DNA from: Sphingobacterium detergens
GTDB lineage: Bacteria > Bacteroidota > Bacteroidia > Sphingobacteriales > Sphingobacteriaceae
Assembly (NCBI RefSeq): GCF_003610355.1
Contig: NZ_RAPY01000008.1
Span: 1-64,000, forward strand
Length of the DNA: 64,000 nt
Direction of reading: 5' to 3'
Position 1 is the first letter of the stretch; every line of letters begins with the position of its first letter. The translations under genes were made by a program, and so were the position numbers. The notes beneath the pieces were generated by a model. The model saw nothing but the letters and a program-made list of their open reading frames with translations. It searched no databases and was not told where the DNA came from. Shown here piece after piece: positions 39,419 through 47,415 of this stretch.

Positions 39419-40273
39419 CTAAATTCTTTCCAATACCAGTTGAATGGCTTTTTCTACGACTGCTTCAGGATTCGGCGAAAATTCTCCCGCTACCCGACTT
39501 GCTAAAATGGCATTTATGGATAAGGCCTGATGGCCAAACATTTTCGCCAAAGCATAGATACCCGCGGTTTCCATTTCCAGATTGGTCAAACGGAAATTGT
39601 TATGCTTAAATGAATTTACCAAAGGAATCAGATCTGGAATCGTATTATCTGAGCGCAGACAACGTCCTTGTGGTGCATAGAATCCCGGCGCCGTCAATGT
39701 CATCCCCTTGGGCAGATCAAAAGCAATTCGGTCTAATAGACGCTCTCCGGCTCCTGCTACATAAGGTTTTAAACTCAATTGTGGAAAATACCGAATTAGA
39801 GCCTGCTGGATATTCAATTCAATTTCATCGTAAGGCTTTTGATAGAACTGCATCAATGCATCAAAGCCAACCCCATATTCCGAAGCCAATATGCTTCCCA
39901 TTTCAACATCCGTCTGTACAGCACCAGAAGTACCGATACGCACGATATCCAAAGAGGTCAGCTCGCTTTTTACTTCCTTATGCTGAAAATCGATGTTTAC
40001 CAATGCATCCAGCTCATTCAATACAATATCAATATTATCTGTACCTATCCCTGTAGAGATCACGCTCAGCCGTTTAGTACCAATATATCCTGTATGGGTG
40101 ATAAACTCGCGCTTCCCCTTTTTGAGTTCGATACGATCAAAATATTTCGACACCTTGGCGACACGGTCCGGATCTCCTACCGTAATGATCGTATCCGCTA
40201 AATCCTCTGGCAATAAATTCAAATGGTAAATACTTCCATCTGAATTTAAAATGAGTTCTGAATTGTTTATCAT
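39419..40273 (-). CDS. Nucleoside phosphorylase (uridine-phosphorylase-like)
   Basis: A 284-residue member of the PNP/UDP family of phosphorylases, which cleave nucleosides with phosphate to base and ribose-1-phosphate. The phosphate-binding ITVGDPDRVAKVS segment is near residue 30, VIRIGTSGAVQ-like sequence (DIVRIGTSGAVQTDV) near 110, and FRLTNLEMETAGIYALA supplies the ribose-binding Glu. The start is the ATG at 40273, which overlaps the previous stop as ATGA. An in-frame TTG at 40300 would run into the upstream gene. Base specificity is uncertain. Confidence 0.87.
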   Translation of the reverse strand: MINNSELILNSDGSIYHLNLLPEDLADTIITVGDPDRVAKVSKYFDRIELKKGKREFITHTGYIGTKRLSVISTGIGTDNIDIVLNELDALVNIDFQHKEVKSELTSLDIVRIGTSGAVQTDVEMGSILASEYGVGFDALMQFYQKPYDEIELNIQQALIRYFPQLSLKPYVAGAGERLLDRIAFDLPKGMTLTAPGFYAPQGRCLRSDNTIPDLIPLVNSFKHNNFRLTNLEMETAGIYALAKMFGHQALSINAILASRVAGEFSPNPEAVVEKAIQLVLERI

Positions 40274-40887
40274 ATCGTTCTTAAATAATTCAATTGACAA
40301 CCTTCAATTTTCGAAAAACGTTCTACGACACGGTTCACCTGCATTTTACGCACCTCAAATTCCAGATAGCAATTATTGTCAAATTCCTGCTTTTCGATTT
40401 CCAGTCCTTCTTCCTTAATAATGCGCATAACATCATTCATATTTAGATAATCAAAGGTCAACCCATAACTATCATTAACTGTTCGTTCAATTACCTGAGC
40501 TTGATCCAAGGCATCCTGTGTGGCCGATTTATAAGCATTAATCAAGCCTGGTACGCCCAAAAGGGTTCCACCGAAATAACGGACAACAACGACGATTATA
40601 TTTGTAATATCTGCCGAGAGCAAAGCATTTAAAATAGGACGCCCCGCGGTACCAGAAGGTTCACCATCATCGTTTATGCGAAATACATTACGATCTGGAG
40701 TCAGCCGATAAGCCCAGCAGTGGTGTCTTGCTTTTGGATGCAGGGATTTCACCTCCTGTAGCAGATCTTTTAATTTCTCCTCAGATTTAAAAGGAAATGC
40801 ATAGGCAATAAATTTGCTTCCTTTATCTCTAAAAATTCCCTCATAGTTTGCATCGATCGTTCGATAAGTATCTTCAAATAAACTCAC
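40270..40887 (-). CDS. IMPACT/YigZ family protein
   Basis: A 205-residue member of the YigZ/IMPACT (UPF0029) family. Conserved segments are GSKFIAYAFPFKSEE near the N-terminus, HHCWAYRL, FRINDDGEPSGTAGRPIL and VVRYFGGTLLGVPGLI. The eukaryotic relative modulates Gcn2, but the bacterial role is unclear. I choose GTG at 40887: it overlaps the upstream stop as GTGA and places the start next to SLFEDTYRTI. The longer ATG at 40947 would encode a tail inside the transporter gene. Confidence 0.88.
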   Translation of the reverse strand: MSLFEDTYRTIDANYEGIFRDKGSKFIAYAFPFKSEEKLKDLLQEVKSLHPKARHHCWAYRLTPDRNVFRINDDGEPSGTAGRPILNALLSADITNIIVVVVRYFGGTLLGVPGLINAYKSATQDALDQAQVIERTVNDSYGLTFDYLNMNDVMRIIKEEGLEIEKQEFDNNCYLEFEVRKMQVNRVVERFSKIEGCQLNYLRTI

Positions 40888-41756
40888 TGATATGCGATAA
40901 TTAAAACTGAAATAATGGAAAGAACTATCCCCAGGTAATTCAACCACGAAAGTCTTTCTTTAAAAAATAATACACCCACCAAAGCACCCAACGAGATAAC
41001 ACCAATATTCATTCCAGTAAATACGATGGAAGGGTTCTCCGGTAATGCCCGATGAGCTTTCATATAAAATAATATATTACAAAAATTGAAAGCGCCTAAA
41101 ATCAGGCCATAGACGACAGCTTTACCTGAAAAGATCTGCTTTTCAATAAAGATAAAATAGCCTAGTAAACCAAATGCAATCAGCATGGCCATGACAAAGA
41201 TAATAAACATCGAACTGACATAAGGTATCGTCACATGCAATGCCACCTGTTTAAAAAGGATATCAATAATCCCCATACCAATAAAAACAAGCAATGGGTA
41301 GAGAGTATTTTTATATCCTTTATTTGACAGGGTTACTGTAGGGAGAGATTTTCGCCAACCGATGGAACATATTATCGCCAATAGACCTACTCCTATTCCC
41401 AACAGTTTATTTCCCTGTAGCTTTTCGTGGAATAAAAAAAACGCTGCTAGTAAGGGAATAAATAAAGACAGTCGTTGGGCTACCTCCGTTTTTACCAAAC
41501 CACTGTAACGGATAGATAGCGCAATAAATACAAACATCCCCGGTAAAAGTACAGCCAGTGCTACATACAGCGGGAATGGTAAGGCATCCCAGCTAATTTC
41601 TTTTATTTCGGGCCGTAATATAAAATAGGTCAAAGCAACCGCCATAGGATAATTCCAGACAATCACTTGTTTTGTTTCTACGCCATACTGTTTTGCCAAT
41701 TTTAATAATACGGCTACAGTGACGCTACAAATAACACTGATGAGGACAAAAATCAT
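40884..41756 (-). CDS. EamA/DMT-superfamily transporter
   Basis: A 290-residue membrane protein with about ten helices in two five-helix repeats, the drug/metabolite transporter topology (first helix IFVLISVICSVTVAVLLKLA, last LNYLGIVLSIISVLIIAY). The substrate is unknown. It lies 15 bases downstream of the nuclease gene and overlaps the IMPACT gene by 4 bases (GTGA). Confidence 0.85.
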   Translation of the reverse strand: MIFVLISVICSVTVAVLLKLAKQYGVETKQVIVWNYPMAVALTYFILRPEIKEISWDALPFPLYVALAVLLPGMFVFIALSIRYSGLVKTEVAQRLSLFIPLLAAFFLFHEKLQGNKLLGIGVGLLAIICSIGWRKSLPTVTLSNKGYKNTLYPLLVFIGMGIIDILFKQVALHVTIPYVSSMFIIFVMAMLIAFGLLGYFIFIEKQIFSGKAVVYGLILGAFNFCNILFYMKAHRALPENPSIVFTGMNIGVISLGALVGVLFFKERLSWLNYLGIVLSIISVLIIAYQ

Positions 41757-41771
41757 TGTTCTATTACTAAA

Positions 41772-42248
41772 TTATTTCCAAAGCCCACGCTTAGCCTGAC
41801 GGGCCTGTCGTTCTAATTTTACAAAAAAATCAGCATACTGAACATTCGGTGTCAGGGTGTAAGTCACAGCATAGCCCTGCTCTACCAATTCCGCGTTAAC
41901 AAATTTCTCTCTAAGATACACATAAGCGAGAAGTCTTCCATAACGATCCTTTTTACCGACATCAAATACCAGCTTTACATTTTTTCCGGTCAACATAGTT
42001 TTTAGATATTCTTTTGCCTCCACGCCATAGTAACCAACCTCCTTTCGTGCTGTTCTCCTTGTTTCGGGAGCATCAATCCCAATCAAGCGTACCCGCTCGC
42101 CTTTTTTACTACCATTTTCAATCACAAAGGTATCGCCATCAATTACCCGTCGCACCTTCACATACCGCTCCTCCCCTTTATAAGAAAAACCTAAAAACAA
42201 GAAACAGATGATAGTGGCACTCACTAAAAAATTAAATCGCTTTAGCAT
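41772..42248 (-). CDS. Thermonuclease (SNase-like) family nuclease
   Basis: A 158-residue staphylococcal-nuclease-like protein. The N-terminus LNFLVSATIICFLFLGF-type segment (NFLVSATIICFLFLGF) is a signal or anchor helix, so the enzyme is probably periplasmic. Active-site features are present: VIDGDTFVI and IGIDAPET (calcium-binding Asp residues, Arg and Glu) and KKDRYGRLLAYVYL (second catalytic Arg). The start is ATG 42248: the -7 promoter box (42272-42265) lies inside the longer ATG-started frame from 42308, which therefore cannot be right. First gene of a four-gene operon. Confidence 0.88.
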   Translation of the reverse strand: MLKRFNFLVSATIICFLFLGFSYKGEERYVKVRRVIDGDTFVIENGSKKGERVRLIGIDAPETRRTARKEVGYYGVEAKEYLKTMLTGKNVKLVFDVGKKDRYGRLLAYVYLREKFVNAELVEQGYAVTYTLTPNVQYADFFVKLERQARQAKRGLWK

Positions 42249-42264
42249 AAAAATTACATTTGGG

Positions 42265-42272
42265 CAAAGGTA
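42265..42272 (-). promoter_or_regulatory. -7 promoter element of the nuclease operon
   Basis: On the minus strand TACCTTTG matches TAnnTTTG, 16 bases before the ATG at 42248. Confidence 0.55.
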
Positions 42273-42308
42273 ATAAAATACTTTTTCAGCAAACAACGGA
42301 TAAAACAC

Positions 42309-42584
42309 AGCATATTTTAATAAAAAAAACTAGTATTTTTAATAAAAAAAACATCAAAAAAAACAGCACTTTTTAATGTGTTTTTTATGTTAAAAAATCA
42401 TTAAAAAAACAGACACAAAAAAGATAGTAAAAATCATAAAGCACTATATAAAAGAAAATTACAAAAACAAAGCATCTCAAAAAAGCTACAAAAAACATAT
42501 ATTTACAACATAAAAAAAGCAATAAAAAGTAGCATAAAACACATCGATAAATGATGTATTTTTTATGAAAAAAAATATTTTTTC
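42309..42584. other. A-tract-rich, probably curved DNA upstream of the aromatic operon
   Basis: Almost pure A/T sequence with many runs of 4-7 A recurring about every 11-12 bases between 42390 and 42545. Phased A-tracts bend DNA (established knowledge). It contains no credible gene. It lies between the divergent nuclease and aromatic operons, immediately upstream of the pheA leader promoter, so it may act as an UP-like or architectural element (inference). Confidence 0.5.
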
Positions 42585-42614
42585 TTTGATATTTCAAAAA
42601 CATTCGTACATTTG
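42585..42614 (+). promoter_or_regulatory. Promoter of the pheA leader and aromatic operon
   Basis: TTTG (42585-42588) and TACATTTG (42607-42614), separated by 18 bases, fit the Bacteroidota -33/-7 promoter well. The predicted start near 42620 makes the leader peptide begin at the ATG at 42635 rather than the one at 42617. Confidence 0.75.
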
Positions 42615-42634
42615 AAATGTCAAACAACACAAGG

Positions 42635-42700
42635 ATGAACAGATCATATACATATTTCTATTTTAACTTCTTTTATTTTAAAAATAAGAGCCGGGATTAG
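42635..42700 (+). CDS. Phe/Tyr-rich leader peptide of the aromatic operon
   Basis: A 21-codon ORF starting with ATG at 42635 and ending with TAG at 42698-42700. Residues 5-15 read YTYFYFNFFYF: five Phe and four Tyr in eleven codons. There is no Trp. This is the signature of an amino-acid-sensing leader, in which ribosomes stall when Phe-tRNA or Tyr-tRNA is scarce. An in-frame ATG at 42617 would add six residues but lies at or before the predicted transcription start. The stop codon lies at the end of the antiterminator's first strand. The gene is far too short for standard annotation. Confidence 0.85.
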   Translation: MNRSYTYFYFNFFYFKNKSRD

Positions 42701-42766
42701 ATTGTGTATACATTAAAATATAACAAGAAAGAGTCCCGGTTTAGATCATCGGGACTCTTTCTTGTT
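42688..42766 (+). promoter_or_regulatory. Transcription attenuator (antiterminator/terminator) upstream of pheA
   Basis: Terminator: 42722-42738 and 42750-42766 are perfect 17-bp complements with an 11-base loop, and the 3' arm is rich in T (ctttcttgttt). Antiterminator: 42688-42698 can pair with 42732-42742 (about 11 bp, with G-U pairs), using the loop-proximal strand of the terminator, so the two are exclusive. A ribosome finishing the leader covers 42688-42698 and lets the terminator form. A ribosome stalled earlier on the Tyr/Phe codons leaves the antiterminator free and transcription continues into pheA. Confidence 0.85.
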
Positions 42767-42790
42767 TAAGGGCAAAATAGCAACAAAAAA

Positions 42791-43615
42791 ATGAGTTTAA
42801 AAATTGCGATACAAGGAGCAAAAGCTTCATTTCACGAGGAGGCAGCATTTAAATATTTTGGACGCGAAGTCGAAATTGTTGAATGTGATTCATTCAAAAA
42901 AACCTGTGAATTGCTTAAGCAAAGAAAAGTAGATTACATTGTTATGGCGATTGAAAATTCAATTGCGGGTAGTCTGCTACCAAACTACAATCTGCTTCGG
43001 GATTATAAATTTCATATCACAGGAGAAGTCTATCTCAACATTCAACAGAATCTGATGGTATTACCGGGTGTTAAATTGAAAGACATTAAACATATCGAAT
43101 CACATCCGATCGCGATCCGTCAATGCGAAGAATTTCTTTCGGAGCTGGAGGGTGTACGTATTACCGAAGGGTCAGACACAGCAGCCACAGCAAAGATGAT
43201 TGCTGAACGGAAATTGACTGATACAGCTGCAATTGCGGGCACTTTGGCTGCAGAGATTTATGGACTTGAGATTCTAGAGAAAAGAATCGAAACCAATAAA
43301 AAGAATGCAACACGTTTTCTGGTTCTATCGAATGAGGTGGTTGAACACAAAAATGCCAATAAAGCATCTTTATCGTTCCAAACGGGAAATACAGTTGGTT
43401 CCTTAGCGACAATTTTACAGTGTTTTGCTGAGCAAAATATCAACTTGAGCAAGATTCAGTCTATGCCTGTTATCGGAAAACGCAACGAATATGACTTTTT
43501 CGTTGATGTTGAATGGAAAAAACAATCAGACTATGAGGCTGCGATCCGAAAAGTACTCAAACATAGTATCAATTTCAATATTATGGGCGAATACATCAAA
43601 AACGAGAAACTATAA
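42791..43615 (+). CDS. pheA: Prephenate dehydratase
   Basis: A 274-residue monofunctional enzyme converting prephenate to phenylpyruvate, the branch step to phenylalanine. The catalytic domain spans residues 1-180 (IAIQGAKASFHEEAA, YIVMAIENSIAGSLLPNY, ESHPIAIRQCEEFL, and NATRFLVLS near 185 with the essential Thr-Arg). An ACT regulatory domain follows (residues 195-270; GSLATILQCFAEQNINLSKIQS and NEYDFFVDVEW, the ESRP-like Phe-binding region). It starts 24 bases after the attenuator terminator. The next gene is 115 bases away with a possible -7-like box (TACCTTTA, 43710-43717). Confidence 0.95.
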   Translation: MSLKIAIQGAKASFHEEAAFKYFGREVEIVECDSFKKTCELLKQRKVDYIVMAIENSIAGSLLPNYNLLRDYKFHITGEVYLNIQQNLMVLPGVKLKDIKHIESHPIAIRQCEEFLSELEGVRITEGSDTAATAKMIAERKLTDTAAIAGTLAAEIYGLEILEKRIETNKKNATRFLVLSNEVVEHKNANKASLSFQTGNTVGSLATILQCFAEQNINLSKIQSMPVIGKRNEYDFFVDVEWKKQSDYEAAIRKVLKHSINFNIMGEYIKNEKL

Positions 43616-43730
43616 TCAACAATTTAATAATTAAAAAAATCAACTTACCCTGAATCTGTCGGAGCTATAAAGACTTACAAAACAAGCATAACAGCTTAGC
43701 AGACTCAAATACCTTTAAAAATTTATTCCG

Positions 43731-44843
43731 ATGAAAAATACATTAGAAATCACTCCTTTGAAATCATGGTTGGATACTGGAGACAAACCTTTAATTATCG
43801 CAGGCCCTTGTAGTGCAGAAACAGAAGAACAACTGGTATCTACAGCTCATCTATTGGCAAACACTGGAAAAGTAAATATCTTACGTGCAGGAATCTGGAA
43901 ACCACGTACTCGTCCAGGTGAATTTGAAGGTATCGGTTCCATTGGTTTGGAGTGGTTGAAGAGAGCGAAAGAAGAGACAGGTTTATTAACAGCTACAGAG
44001 GTTGCGACAGCAAAACACGTCGAAGAAGCTTTGGCAGCTGGTGTTGATGTACTTTGGGTAGGTGCACGTTCCACTGCAAACCCGTTCACGGTACAAGAAA
44101 TCGCTGATGCACTACAGGGAGTAGACGTACCAGTTTTCGTAAAAAATCCGGTTAACCCAGATTTATCGTTGTGGATTGGTGCTTTGGAGCGTATCAACCG
44201 CGCTGGCATCAAAAAATTAGGTGCTATTCATAGAGGATTCTCTTCTTACGAGAAAACTGCGTTCCGCAATGAGCCAATGTGGGATTTAGCCATCCAGTTA
44301 AAAACTGCTTGTCCTAATTTGCCGATCATCAACGACCCTAGCCACATTTGTGGTAACCGCGAATTGTTACCGTACATCGCACAAAAAGCAATGGATATGG
44401 ATATGCAAGGTTTGATCATCGAATCACATATTGATCCTTCTGTTGCATGGACTGATGCCAAACAACAAGTTACACCAGCAGCCCTAGCAGAGTTGATTAA
44501 TCATTTAACATTACGTAAAGCTGATTCTGACAACCCTTCATTTGAGGATAAATTAGCCGAATTGCGTAGCAACATCGATAAATTGGATGATTTAATTATC
44601 CAAAAAATCGGCGAGCGTATGAAAATTGCAGAGAAAATCGGTGAATACAAACGCGATAACAATGTGACGATCTTACAGGTAAACCGTTGGGATGAGATTG
44701 TTCAAAAACGTACAAAACTTGCTGAAGCACTTTCTTTGGGCAGTGAATTTGCAACAAAATTCCTAGAATTAATTCACAACGAATCTATCCGTAAACAAAA
44801 CGCGGTAATGAATTCACAGGAACAACCAACAGCAGAAGCATAA
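43731..44843 (+). CDS. DAHP synthase / chorismate mutase fusion
   Basis: A 370-residue bifunctional enzyme. Residues 1-260 are a type I-beta 3-deoxy-7-phosphoheptulonate synthase (IIAGPCSAETEEQL, LRAGIWKPRTRPGEFEGIG, IIDPSHI-like NDPSHICGNRELLP, DPSVAWTDAKQQV), the entry enzyme of the shikimate pathway. Residues 275-360 are an AroQ-type chorismate mutase helix domain (LRSNIDKLDDLIIQKIGERM and IAEKIGEYKRDNNVTILQ). The fusion couples the first pathway step to the Phe/Tyr branch and commonly serves as the feedback sensor. Its stop codon overlaps the aroA start (TAATG). Confidence 0.93.
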   Translation: MKNTLEITPLKSWLDTGDKPLIIAGPCSAETEEQLVSTAHLLANTGKVNILRAGIWKPRTRPGEFEGIGSIGLEWLKRAKEETGLLTATEVATAKHVEEALAAGVDVLWVGARSTANPFTVQEIADALQGVDVPVFVKNPVNPDLSLWIGALERINRAGIKKLGAIHRGFSSYEKTAFRNEPMWDLAIQLKTACPNLPIINDPSHICGNRELLPYIAQKAMDMDMQGLIIESHIDPSVAWTDAKQQVTPAALAELINHLTLRKADSDNPSFEDKLAELRSNIDKLDDLIIQKIGERMKIAEKIGEYKRDNNVTILQVNRWDEIVQKRTKLAEALSLGSEFATKFLELIHNESIRKQNAVMNSQEQPTAEA

Positions 44844-46093
44844 TGAATCAACAAGTCATCAAGCTGACGCACCCATCAAAAAAAATAAAAGGCACGGTTC
44901 AACTGACAGGATCAAAATCCGAGAGCAACCGTGCTCTTATTATTCACTCGTTGAGCAAGGGGCAAGTTGATATAGCGAATCTTTCCGAGGCTGCTGATAC
45001 GGTGACGTTAAACCGTGTATTGCAGATTGCATCAGCTCCTCAACCCGGCTACAACACGATTGACATCGGTCCGGCGGGTACAGCAATGCGCTTTTTAACG
45101 GCCTACCTGAACCTTGTTCAAGGAAACTTTATCCTTACAGGGACCGAACGCATGCAACAACGGCCAATCGGTATATTGGTTGATGCCATGAAGGAAATCG
45201 GCGCCGACATTCATTATGAAAAAAAAACCGGCTATCCGCCCCTAAAAATAGAAGGTGGCATATTTCAAGGAAAGGACCGTGTCCGGATAAAAGGAAATAT
45301 CAGTAGCCAATACATCTCTGCGCTGCTATTAATTGCTCCCGCATTGAAAAAAGGGCTTACATTGGAAATCGAGGGCGAACTGACTTCCAGACCCTATGTA
45401 TCCATGACCCTCGATATGCTAAAAAGCGTCGGCATACAGCATGAGTGGACAGCGAATGAAATACATATTGCCCCACAGACTTTTTCAAAAAGCACGATCT
45501 ATGTGGAGCCAGATTGGAGCGCAGCTTCTTACTGGTACGCTATTGTAGCACTGGCAGAAGACGGCGCATCTATCGTCTTACCTGGGCTTAAAAAAGACAG
45601 TCTGCAAGGAGATATTGCAATTGTCGATATCATGACCCATTTTGGCGTGCAATCCAGTTTTGAAGCCGATGGCTTGCATCTTCATAAAACAGCAATAGAT
45701 TCGGAAAAAACGTTATTTGATTTCAAAGAATGCCCAGATCTCGCACAGACTGTCGTCGTTGTCGCTGCAGCTTTAGGTCGTGATGTTTCTTTTACGGGTC
45801 TTGAGACATTAAAGATCAAAGAAACGGACCGAATCGCAGCTCTCCAGACTGAAATAGCAAAATTTGGCGCTGAATTGATAGCAGATAACGAAACCTATCA
45901 TCTTAAAACGGCACAGGTATTCCAGCCAAAAGAGGTGACCTTTGACACTTATGAAGACCACCGTATGGCAATGGCGTTTGCTCCCCTTGCATTGGTTTTT
46001 GACCAGATCAAGATTGCAGAGCCAATGGTTGTAGAAAAATCGTATCCTGATTTCTGGAAACATCTACAGGCCCAATCTTTTAGCATTGACTAA
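44843..46093 (+). CDS. aroA: 3-phosphoshikimate 1-carboxyvinyltransferase (EPSP synthase)
   Basis: A 416-residue enzyme joining shikimate-3-phosphate and PEP. Family segments are TGSKSESNRALIIHSLSKG (substrate-binding Lys and Arg), DIGPAGTAMRFLTAYL (PEP-binding region), RMQQRPIG, PDWSAASYWYAIVAL and KIKETDRIAALQTEIAKFGAE. The PEP-loop reads GPAGTAMRFLTA rather than the usual GNAGTAMRPLTA, a Bacteroidota/class II-like feature with Phe in place of the Pro. Its ATG overlaps the upstream stop codon by one base, indicating translational coupling. It ends at a strong terminator. Confidence 0.95.
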   Translation: MNQQVIKLTHPSKKIKGTVQLTGSKSESNRALIIHSLSKGQVDIANLSEAADTVTLNRVLQIASAPQPGYNTIDIGPAGTAMRFLTAYLNLVQGNFILTGTERMQQRPIGILVDAMKEIGADIHYEKKTGYPPLKIEGGIFQGKDRVRIKGNISSQYISALLLIAPALKKGLTLEIEGELTSRPYVSMTLDMLKSVGIQHEWTANEIHIAPQTFSKSTIYVEPDWSAASYWYAIVALAEDGASIVLPGLKKDSLQGDIAIVDIMTHFGVQSSFEADGLHLHKTAIDSEKTLFDFKECPDLAQTVVVVAAALGRDVSFTGLETLKIKETDRIAALQTEIAKFGAELIADNETYHLKTAQVFQPKEVTFDTYEDHRMAMAFAPLALVFDQIKIAEPMVVEKSYPDFWKHLQAQSFSID

Positions 46094-46100
46094 TATTTTA

Positions 46101-46138
46101 AAAACCAGGGAGAATATAGTTATATACTCCCTGGTTTT
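46101..46138 (+). terminator. Terminator after aroA
   Basis: AAAACCAGGGAG (46101-46112) pairs perfectly with CTCCCTGGTTTT (46127-46138) across a 14-base AT-rich loop, 7 bases past the aroA stop codon. aroC therefore probably has its own promoter in 46139-46308. Confidence 0.85.
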
Positions 46139-46308: not shown

Positions 46309-47415
46309 ATGGCAGGAAACTCATTTGGCGATTTATTCAGAATCAGCACTTTTGGCGAATCACACGGAAAAGCGATCGGTGTAATTATTGATGGTTGCCC
46401 CTCAAATATAACGATAGACGAAGAGTTTATACAGTCTGAACTAGATAAACGGAAACCCGGACAGTCCAGAATTACCACACAACGAAAAGAAAGTGATACC
46501 GCTCAGATATTATCGGGCGTATTCGAAGGGAAGTCGACCGGAACTCCGATTGCCATTGTTATACCAAATGAAGATCAACGTTCCAAGGACTATACCCACA
46601 TTAAAGATATCTTCAGGCCTTCCCACGCGGACTTCACCTATCAGATGAAATATGGTATCCGTGACTACCGTGGTGGTGGCCGTTCCTCAGCCCGTGAAAC
46701 AGCCGCCCGCGTTGCTGCAGGTGCTGTTGCAAAGAGTTTTTTACAACAATTTGGCATCGAAATCTTCGCGCATGTTTCGGGTGTGGGTACGATCGAAGCG
46801 CCCAATTTGGACACCAAAGATCTTAAAGCCCTGCTTGAGCTACGCGAATCTAATATCGCACGCTGTGCTGATCCAGCTACAGCCAATGAAATGGTCGAAT
46901 TTATAGATTCAGTAAGAAAAGCAGGTGATACAGTAGGTGGACGCATTTCGGCCGTGGTAAGACATGTCCCCGTTGGACTTGGAGAACCTGTATTTGACAA
47001 ACTCCATGCTGACCTCGCGAAAGCGATGATGAGCATCAATGCTGTACACGGATTTGAATATGGATCAGGTTTTGCAGGTTCAGAGTTGCGAGGTTCCGAA
47101 CATAATGATATATTTGTAGCAGATGACCATGATTTAAATCAAGTGCATACACATACCAATTTCTCTGGGGGAATACAGGGTGGCATATCAAACGGTATGG
47201 ATATTACTTTTAAAGTAGCATTTAAGCCTGTTGCAACCATCATGAGAGATCAAGAAACAGTCGACATCCATGGCAACCCAGCCATCGCAAGTGGTAAGGG
47301 AAGACATGATCCTTGTGTTGTTTCGAGAGCGGTAATTATTGTAGAAGCCATGGCGGCACTTGTGATTGCGGATCATCTACTTAAACATCAAAGTTACAAA
47401 CATGCTGCAAGATAA
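46309..47415 (+). CDS. aroC: Chorismate synthase
   Basis: A 368-residue FMN-dependent enzyme making chorismate from EPSP, the last shared step of the pathway. The signatures are [19 protein letters not shown] near residue 17, [24 protein letters not shown] near 120 and [29 protein letters not shown] near the C-terminus. It is full length and separated from the pheA-aroA group by a terminator. The ROK-family gene overlaps its 3' end by 14 bases. Confidence 0.96.

Follow-up and report, generated by a model that had tools for sequence, protein, structure and literature searches.

A predicted phenylalanine/tyrosine leader-peptide attenuator upstream of pheA in Sphingobacterium detergens

Classical attenuation is textbook knowledge for Proteobacteria. 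The pheA leader of Escherichia coli combines a Phe-codon-rich ORF upstream of pheA with a mutually exclusive antiterminator and terminator, and thrL of the same species is a multi-residue leader (Thr and Ile). The 2004 study of Vitreschak reportedly named attenuators in Bacteroidetes/Chlorobi, and an earlier prediction of a system like the one described here is therefore possible.

For Bacteroidota, the available text on Flavobacterium psychrophilum reports "strong clues" that operons for amino acids are preceded by leader-peptide attenuators (PMC9723704), so the statement, in an earlier note on the present DNA, that such attenuation is much less described in this phylum than in Proteobacteria was partly right. 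In Bacteroides thetaiotaomicron, short ORFs "reminiscent of leader peptides" appear in the accessible text of PMC7366714. Outside the phylum, the accessible text of PMC8632094 proposes a Phe-codon uORF with a terminator for the uORFC-13-1 motif, found upstream of aroF in Acholeplasma.

In the present study we analysed a window of 64,000 nucleotides from S. detergens, in which the region upstream of pheA very probably encodes a leader-peptide (ribosome-mediated) transcription attenuator reading the charging of both tRNA-Phe and tRNA-Tyr. The genome is 6.73 Mb in size, and its PheA is 100% identical to those of named Sphingobacterium species including S. puteale, S. athyrii and S. prati.

Promoter, leader ORF and alternative helices

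The gap between a divergent nuclease-family gene and pheA is about 480 bases long and contains, in this order, a TTG element, the box TACATTTG, the leader ORF and a hairpin. The features are as follows:

41772-42308, minus strand: nuclease-family gene, divergent, upstream neighbour of the pheA gap
42586..42588, plus strand: TTG, upstream (-33-like) promoter element, read from the sequence
42607..42614, plus strand: TACATTTG, Bacteroidota -7 box (TAnnTTTG), matching the F. psychrophilum box
42635..42700, plus strand: leader ORF MNRSYTYFYFNFFYFKNKSRD of 21 codons, with ATG at 42635 and the stop codon TAG at 42698-42700
42650..42705, plus strand: possible leader (protector, 1:2) hairpin, 42650-42654/42701-42705 and 42670-42677/42683-42690
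42688..42698, plus strand: antiterminator strand (region 2), pairing with 42732-42742
42732..42742, plus strand: region 3, the strand shared by antiterminator and terminator
42722..42766, plus strand: predicted intrinsic terminator hairpin (3:4), 19-bp stem 42722-42740/42748-42766 with a T-rich 3' arm

A promoter is present, as the earlier note had proposed, but it is of the Bacteroidota type (TTG plus TACATTTG) and not of the sigma-70 consensus type; a scan for sigma-70-type promoters listed none at the leader region. In the available text on F. psychrophilum, TAnnTTTG is the -7 box of the main sigma factor and is placed at -12 to -5 (PMC9723704), which would put the transcription start near 42619 and the in-frame ATG at 42617 outside the transcript. 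Among 80 pheA loci of near relatives, 79 had the box in the 50 nt preceding the start of the leader (vs 144 of 4000 base-shuffled stretches), the sole exception (L037) having undetermined bases, and TTG lay 15-25 nt before it in 78 of these 79 loci, a count run without a control. In a wider survey (see below) only 27 of 61 leader-bearing genomes had this exact motif within 60 nt upstream, so promoter sequences vary more beyond the family of Sphingobacterium. The gene-like ORFs at 39419-42308 are all on the minus strand, and the terminator at 42722-42766 is thus not needed by any close upstream gene on the plus strand.

The leader ORF contains five Phe and four Tyr codons, all within codons 5-15, exactly as first described. 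The densest stretch in the short ORFs upstream of pheA in the window has 9 F/Y per 12 codons; among 1220 dinucleotide-shuffled upstream regions of class members, 18 (1.5%) reached at least 7 and none reached 8. The near-relative sample comprised the best 80 of 223 pheA loci kept by one scan, with titles naming Sphingobacterium, Parapedobacter, Olivibacter, Daejeonella, Pedobacter and others (mostly Sphingobacteriaceae; L071 is a metagenome bin titled Legionellaceae). All 80 carry a short ORF with at least 6 F/Y per 12 codons upstream of pheA, so the conserved codon runs that had been suggested as a check were indeed found.

These loci were used to build an alignment (A1) of 58 sequences, made up of the window plus 57 loci from the set of 80 (near-identical sequences among 74 distinct ones were dropped by eye, and L034 was shortened by hand). 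Columns 0 and +1, the anchor pair, are F and Y by construction and were excluded from residue counts. The five other columns of the block (290 cells) contained 150 F, 99 Y and 8 W (257 aromatic residues), the remaining 33 cells being 13 N, 4 T, 4 S, 4 D, 3 P, 2 L and one each of Q, I and H. The commonest one-step neighbours of F and Y codons, namely Leu, Ser, Cys, Ile and Val, account for only 7 of the 290 cells, with N, D and H accounting for 18. The block residues thus change mostly among Phe, Tyr and Trp. Of the 18 gaps within the block, 17 had a length of 3 nt, although this frame keeping is partly a result of construction, since each row starts at the start codon of an open ORF; the spacer downstream of the leader ORF had no frame preference (21/19/18).

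We consider it unlikely that the same attenuator senses Phe alone, with the Tyr codons as passengers or aids to RNA pairing. Such a reading would agree with the position of pheA as the first gene, with the leader of E. coli pheA, which is Phe-rich and is not known to contain Tyr, and with the location of the aminotransferase-tyrA pair, which lies apart from pheA in this genome (G000:C1:1873600-1877400; L245 and L236) and before which an aromatic leader was sought and not found. However, Tyr codons are as common as Phe codons across the 58 leaders (231 vs 219), and the two residues exchange at the same positions (26 Y and 24 F in the column before the anchor pair), as is expected if either amino acid triggers the switch. 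Moreover, the gene order pheA-aminotransferase-tyrA occurs in several genomes of other families, where control by Tyr would be sensible: among 22 loci of other families with about 1.5 kb past PheA (L128-L149), TyrA was seen downstream in 14 and DAHP synthase was next in 3, neither being seen in the other 5, and in all three loci checked an aminotransferase gene separates pheA from tyrA. Sensing of both Phe and Tyr may thus fit either an older pheA-tyrA operon or the way in which the two branches are now provided with prephenate.

The two helices of the predicted Phe/Tyr attenuator are mutually exclusive. The earlier note had given the terminator 17 bp; the hairpin and its T-rich 3' arm were confirmed, with a stem of 19 bp, the G+C part of which is followed by TTTCTTGTTT. 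An automated terminator scan missed the hairpin at 42722-42766; the folding energy of 42617-42770 is -44.3 kcal/mol, compared with -21.8 +/- 3.1 kcal/mol in shuffles (z -7.2). The alternative helix of 42688-42698 with 42732-42742 (GAGCCGGGATT/AGTCCCGGTTT) is present as originally proposed, and the region 2/region 3 duplex has an energy of -17.4 kcal/mol.

Compensatory changes, a further check that had been suggested, were detected in both helices of A1, as judged against shuffles that ignore relatedness. In the terminator, 96.6% of cells are paired and 8 of 13 pairs have double changes (64 double-change cells vs 23.2 in shuffles), with a covariation score above 500/500 shuffles; its 22 further pair types were matched by 48/500. 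In the antiterminator, 86.2% of cells are paired and 4 of 8 pairs have double changes (11 cells vs 4.9), again with a score above 500/500 shuffles; its number of double-change pairs was matched by 23/500, and sliding the helix by +2 and +3 gave 15 and 13 double-change cells vs 11 unslid. Judged from these sequences, the terminator covaries clearly and the antiterminator moderately. Seven A1 sequences differ in all three strands together at one position (C/G/C to G/U/A). The best helix chosen by the script differed from the expected antiterminator in 8 of the 80 loci (L020, L022, L025, L034, L039, L049, L050 and L077). In the possible leader hairpin, a feature absent from the earlier note, 87.5% of cells are paired and there are 35 double-change cells, but its 3 double-change pairs of 13 were matched by 417/500 shuffles.

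Putatively controlled genes and spread in Bacteroidota

The genes downstream of the leader are arranged as follows:

42791..43615, plus strand: pheA, prephenate dehydratase (PDT), first structural gene (Pfam PF00800, 6.2e-58)
43731..44843, plus strand: DAHP synthase/chorismate mutase fusion (PF00793 and PF01817)
44843..46093, plus strand: aroA, EPSP synthase (PF00275), beginning where the preceding gene ends
46101..46138, plus strand: long hairpin after aroA, from the fold (12 + 4 pairs, one internal mismatch)
46309..47415, plus strand: aroC, chorismate synthase (PF01264)

The ACT domain of pheA (PF01842) scored 24.5 bits, below the cut-off of 27. No TAnnTTTG box is present in the gap between pheA and the DAHP synthase gene (43612-43731) and aroA adjoins the latter gene, so the three genes probably form one unit. 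The control of pheA and the aromatic operon that had been proposed is plausible, by gene spacing, as far as the DAHP synthase/chorismate mutase gene and aroA; aroC is set apart by the hairpin at 46101-46138, a possible end of the attenuated transcript, and its membership of the controlled unit is uncertain. The order pheA-DAHP synthase/chorismate mutase-aroA is kept in all 80 loci. In 74 of them aroC follows aroA; five of the other six sequences end soon after or within aroA, and L078 has no aroC in the 588 bases covered.

A PheA match was found in 258 of 296 Bacteroidota genomes (69 of the same class or nearer, 189 outside). Those examined first, from listed matches favouring high scores, were 61 of the 69 class genomes and 46 of the 189 others, with a threshold of at least 7 F/Y in 12 codons upstream of pheA. 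A leader was present in 54 of the 61 class genomes (the 8 of the window's family included), distributed among the families as f1 7/8, f2 8/8, f4 29/29, f5 3/5, f8 3/7, f9 2/2 and f11 2/2. Outside the class it was found in 4 of the 46 genomes (G066, G014, G156 and G283), where leaders of longer proteins may be missed, as the surveyed regions were anchored on the PheA match instead of a mapped start. No leader was found within 440 nt in the other 8 of the 69 class genomes, which have divergent PheA (E 6e-29 to 2e-23); in total, pheA is below the leader threshold in 15 of the 69.

The pairing was surveyed in 61 leader-bearing genomes having at least 6 F/Y (57 of the class, 4 outside). A region-2/region-3 helix with a score of at least 16 was detected in 54 of them (vs 6.6% of shuffles), and one beginning 5-13 nt from the block in 52 (vs 1.8%).

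A covariance model (R1) comprising the leader hairpin and the terminator was searched in the 296 genomes. It matched 8/8 same-family genomes at E <= 1.2e-10, and some match at E <= 0.1 was obtained in 96 of the 296; its matches outside the family were rejected as a measure of spread, those inspected being in part pheA leaders and in part plain terminators. Within its own genome R1 scored strongly at the window locus alone, the next match (window 26446) resembling a plain terminator.

Other leader-like regions were also observed. Four loci of genus g8 in family f4 (L144, L146, L148 and L149) have the leader form MxxNRFYFSNNFYFFF, with antiterminator and terminator sequences wholly unlike those of the window and with the spacing kept. 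In the S. detergens genome we identified (i) a Trp leader, MTRRYTNTNWWWPEAISIGNQLVLS, before the gene of anthranilate synthase component I (L227; G000:C7, upstream of 172357), in which GCATCGGG, 13 nt past the last Trp codon, is complementary to the terminator arm CCCGATGC (pairing by eye), (ii) upstream of an aspartokinase/homoserine dehydrogenase gene, a Thr/Ile leader, MNTNTIITTIIITTGIKLRRK, together with a terminator-like hairpin (L232; G000:C9, upstream of 87789), and (iii) a His-rich short ORF, MIYTYVHHFHLHHRHVAIC, which follows a TACATTTG box and precedes hisG (L229; G000:C1, upstream of 1774401), with no clear terminator in the fold of that upstream region. The ilvB gene of this genome has no obvious leader before its own start.

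Ribosome position and the predicted switch

In the window the stop codon of the leader falls at the end of the antiterminator strand, as the earlier note had pointed out, but this position is not conserved: among the 58 leaders the stop codon ends 9, 12, 18, 21, 30 or 39 nt past the last F/Y codon. The nearly fixed quantity, unlike the position of the stop codon, is the distance from the block to the core of region 2. Counted from the last base of the final F/Y codon up to the GGG core, it is 12-14 nt in 48 of the 58 leaders, 10 nt in 4 and 8 nt in 2, the 8-nt cases reflecting an earlier GGG run; the other four values are artefacts, caused by an altered core or by a different GGG.

The consequences of this geometry were calculated for a ribosome covering 15 nt past the first P-site base, the value of the E. 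coli footprint. In the nascent RNA of the window, the probability of 2:3 pairing is 1.0 with the A site at any codon up to 15 (the last F/Y codon), 0.67 at codon 16 and 0 from codon 17. With the last F/Y codon in the A site it reaches at least 0.5 in 57 of the 58 leaders, whereas at the stop codon it is below 0.2 in all 58, and the antiterminator is lost two codons past the block in 53 and one codon past in 5. Shared ancestry explains part of this constancy, and the calculation was therefore repeated in the wider survey with 57 distinct leaders, including 7 of the window's own family. In 41 of these the probability at the last F/Y codon was at least 0.5, and in 56 it was below 0.2 at the stop codon; the last permissive codon lay at -1 to +2 codons relative to the end of the block in 51, further away in 5 and was undefined in 1. 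It should be added that the calculation constrains the block at its downstream end only, because the antiterminator is allowed at every codon up to 15.

At equilibrium the full transcript always terminates (P34 = 1.0), so the switch must be kinetic. Nascent RNA without a ribosome favours the antiterminator (0.999), and no superattenuation is thus predicted; this is the opposite of textbook attenuation, in which an untranslated leader terminates.

According to the proposed mechanism, RNA polymerase would start near 42619 and a ribosome would begin the 21-codon leader at 42635. When Phe or Tyr is short, the ribosome would wait on codons 5-15 with its leading edge at or before 42689, leaving the core of region 2 (42690-42698) free to pair with region 3 (42732-42742) while region 4 has yet to be transcribed; this 2:3 pairing would block the terminator and allow transcription of pheA, the DAHP synthase/chorismate mutase gene and probably aroA. 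When both amino acids are plentiful, the ribosome would cover region 2, regions 3 and 4 would pair, and transcription would stop near 42766. We infer that the leader is translated, that termination takes place in vivo, that transcription and translation are coupled, and that the system responds to starvation. The codon runs, the covariation of the helices and the conserved spacing support the Phe/Tyr attenuator as originally read, and the basis of this reading comprises the sequence, its conservation, the promoter box, the covarying terminator, the moderately covarying antiterminator and the calculated geometry.

It is very improbable that the hairpin merely terminates transcription in the ordinary way or controls translation, with the F/Y ORF standing outside any switch. 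In favour of such a role, only 24 nt separate the hairpin from the start of pheA, and it is always formed once the RNA is complete. Against this, the gap between hairpin and pheA varies from 10 to 68 nt among the 80 loci (L034, in which the script misplaced the terminator, being excluded), the leader residues and the spacing between block and region 2 are kept, and in other families region 2 is complementary to terminator arms of quite another sequence. Still slightly less probable is an arrest peptide, or a small protein whose sequence is itself important: a Phe-Tyr pair near the block end is present in 58/58 aligned leaders, followed by F or Y in 54, but at the other positions F, Y and W replace one another, and the aromatic runs of other families are quite unlike these. 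A T-box or another ligand-binding riboswitch, which the structured 5' region of an amino-acid operon might bring to mind, can practically be dismissed, as no Rfam family reached its gathering score in the window, and the 30 Rfam matches obtained at E up to 10 over 42560-42800, all below gathering scores, include no T-box or riboswitch (the best two, ohsC and a plastid 3'UTR, are hairpin-like).

A broader reading of the Phe/Tyr attenuator is more tentative. It may be a class-wide "aromatic" attenuator of Bacteroidota, inherited by descent, in which Phe and Tyr charging are interchangeable inputs and which belongs to a wider group of leader-peptide attenuators (Phe/Tyr, Trp, Thr/Ile, perhaps His); this group would be one of the chief modes of amino-acid regulation in these bacteria and would imply that transcription and translation are closely coupled in the phylum. 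We place this proposal a little on the doubtful side of even. A precise and widely kept Phe/Tyr attenuator would provide a ready reporter of aromatic tRNA charging in Bacteroidota. Since it could work only if the ribosome follows the polymerase closely, it would also allow a direct test of whether transcription and translation are coupled in this phylum, the promoters of which are unusual.

Comparison with described attenuators

The Rfam family Phe_leader (RF01859) aligns end to end with 42651-42763, but the score is below its gathering cut-off (21.5 bits vs 55, E 0.17), and membership of this family was ruled out on that score.

The F. psychrophilum clues share with the window the phylum, the association with amino-acid biosynthesis operons and the TAnnTTTG promoters, as far as the available text goes; no pheA or Phe/Tyr leader is named there and the word "phenylalanine" occurs 0 times in the main text, while the supplementary tables may include such a case (PMC9723704). 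Like uORFC-13-1, the locus combines a Phe-codon uORF and a terminator with a DAHP synthase gene, here among the downstream genes; in contrast, uORFC-13-1 is described, in the accessible text, from Acholeplasma and environmental sequences with at least one Phe codon, and no Tyr block is mentioned there (PMC8632094). Within the accessible open-licence PMC literature we found no description of a pheA or Phe/Tyr leader in Bacteroidota.

The closest likeness is to the pheA leader of E. coli, as the window also has a Phe-codon-rich ORF before pheA and mutually exclusive helices. The differences are (i) Tyr codons as frequent as Phe codons, (ii) a Bacteroidota promoter and (iii) the downstream genes, which in the window are those of DAHP synthase/chorismate mutase and aroA. 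Like thrL, the window leader carries codons for a pair of amino acids from related pathways, here Phe and Tyr instead of Thr and Ile. The sequence contains a control-codon ORF, a predicted terminator before pheA and an antiterminator sharing a strand with that terminator, and by calculation region 2 would be free with the ribosome on the control codons and covered with the ribosome at the stop codon. The window leader thus has most of the testable structural features of classical attenuators and would work as they do; its Phe-plus-Tyr version is what appears to be new.
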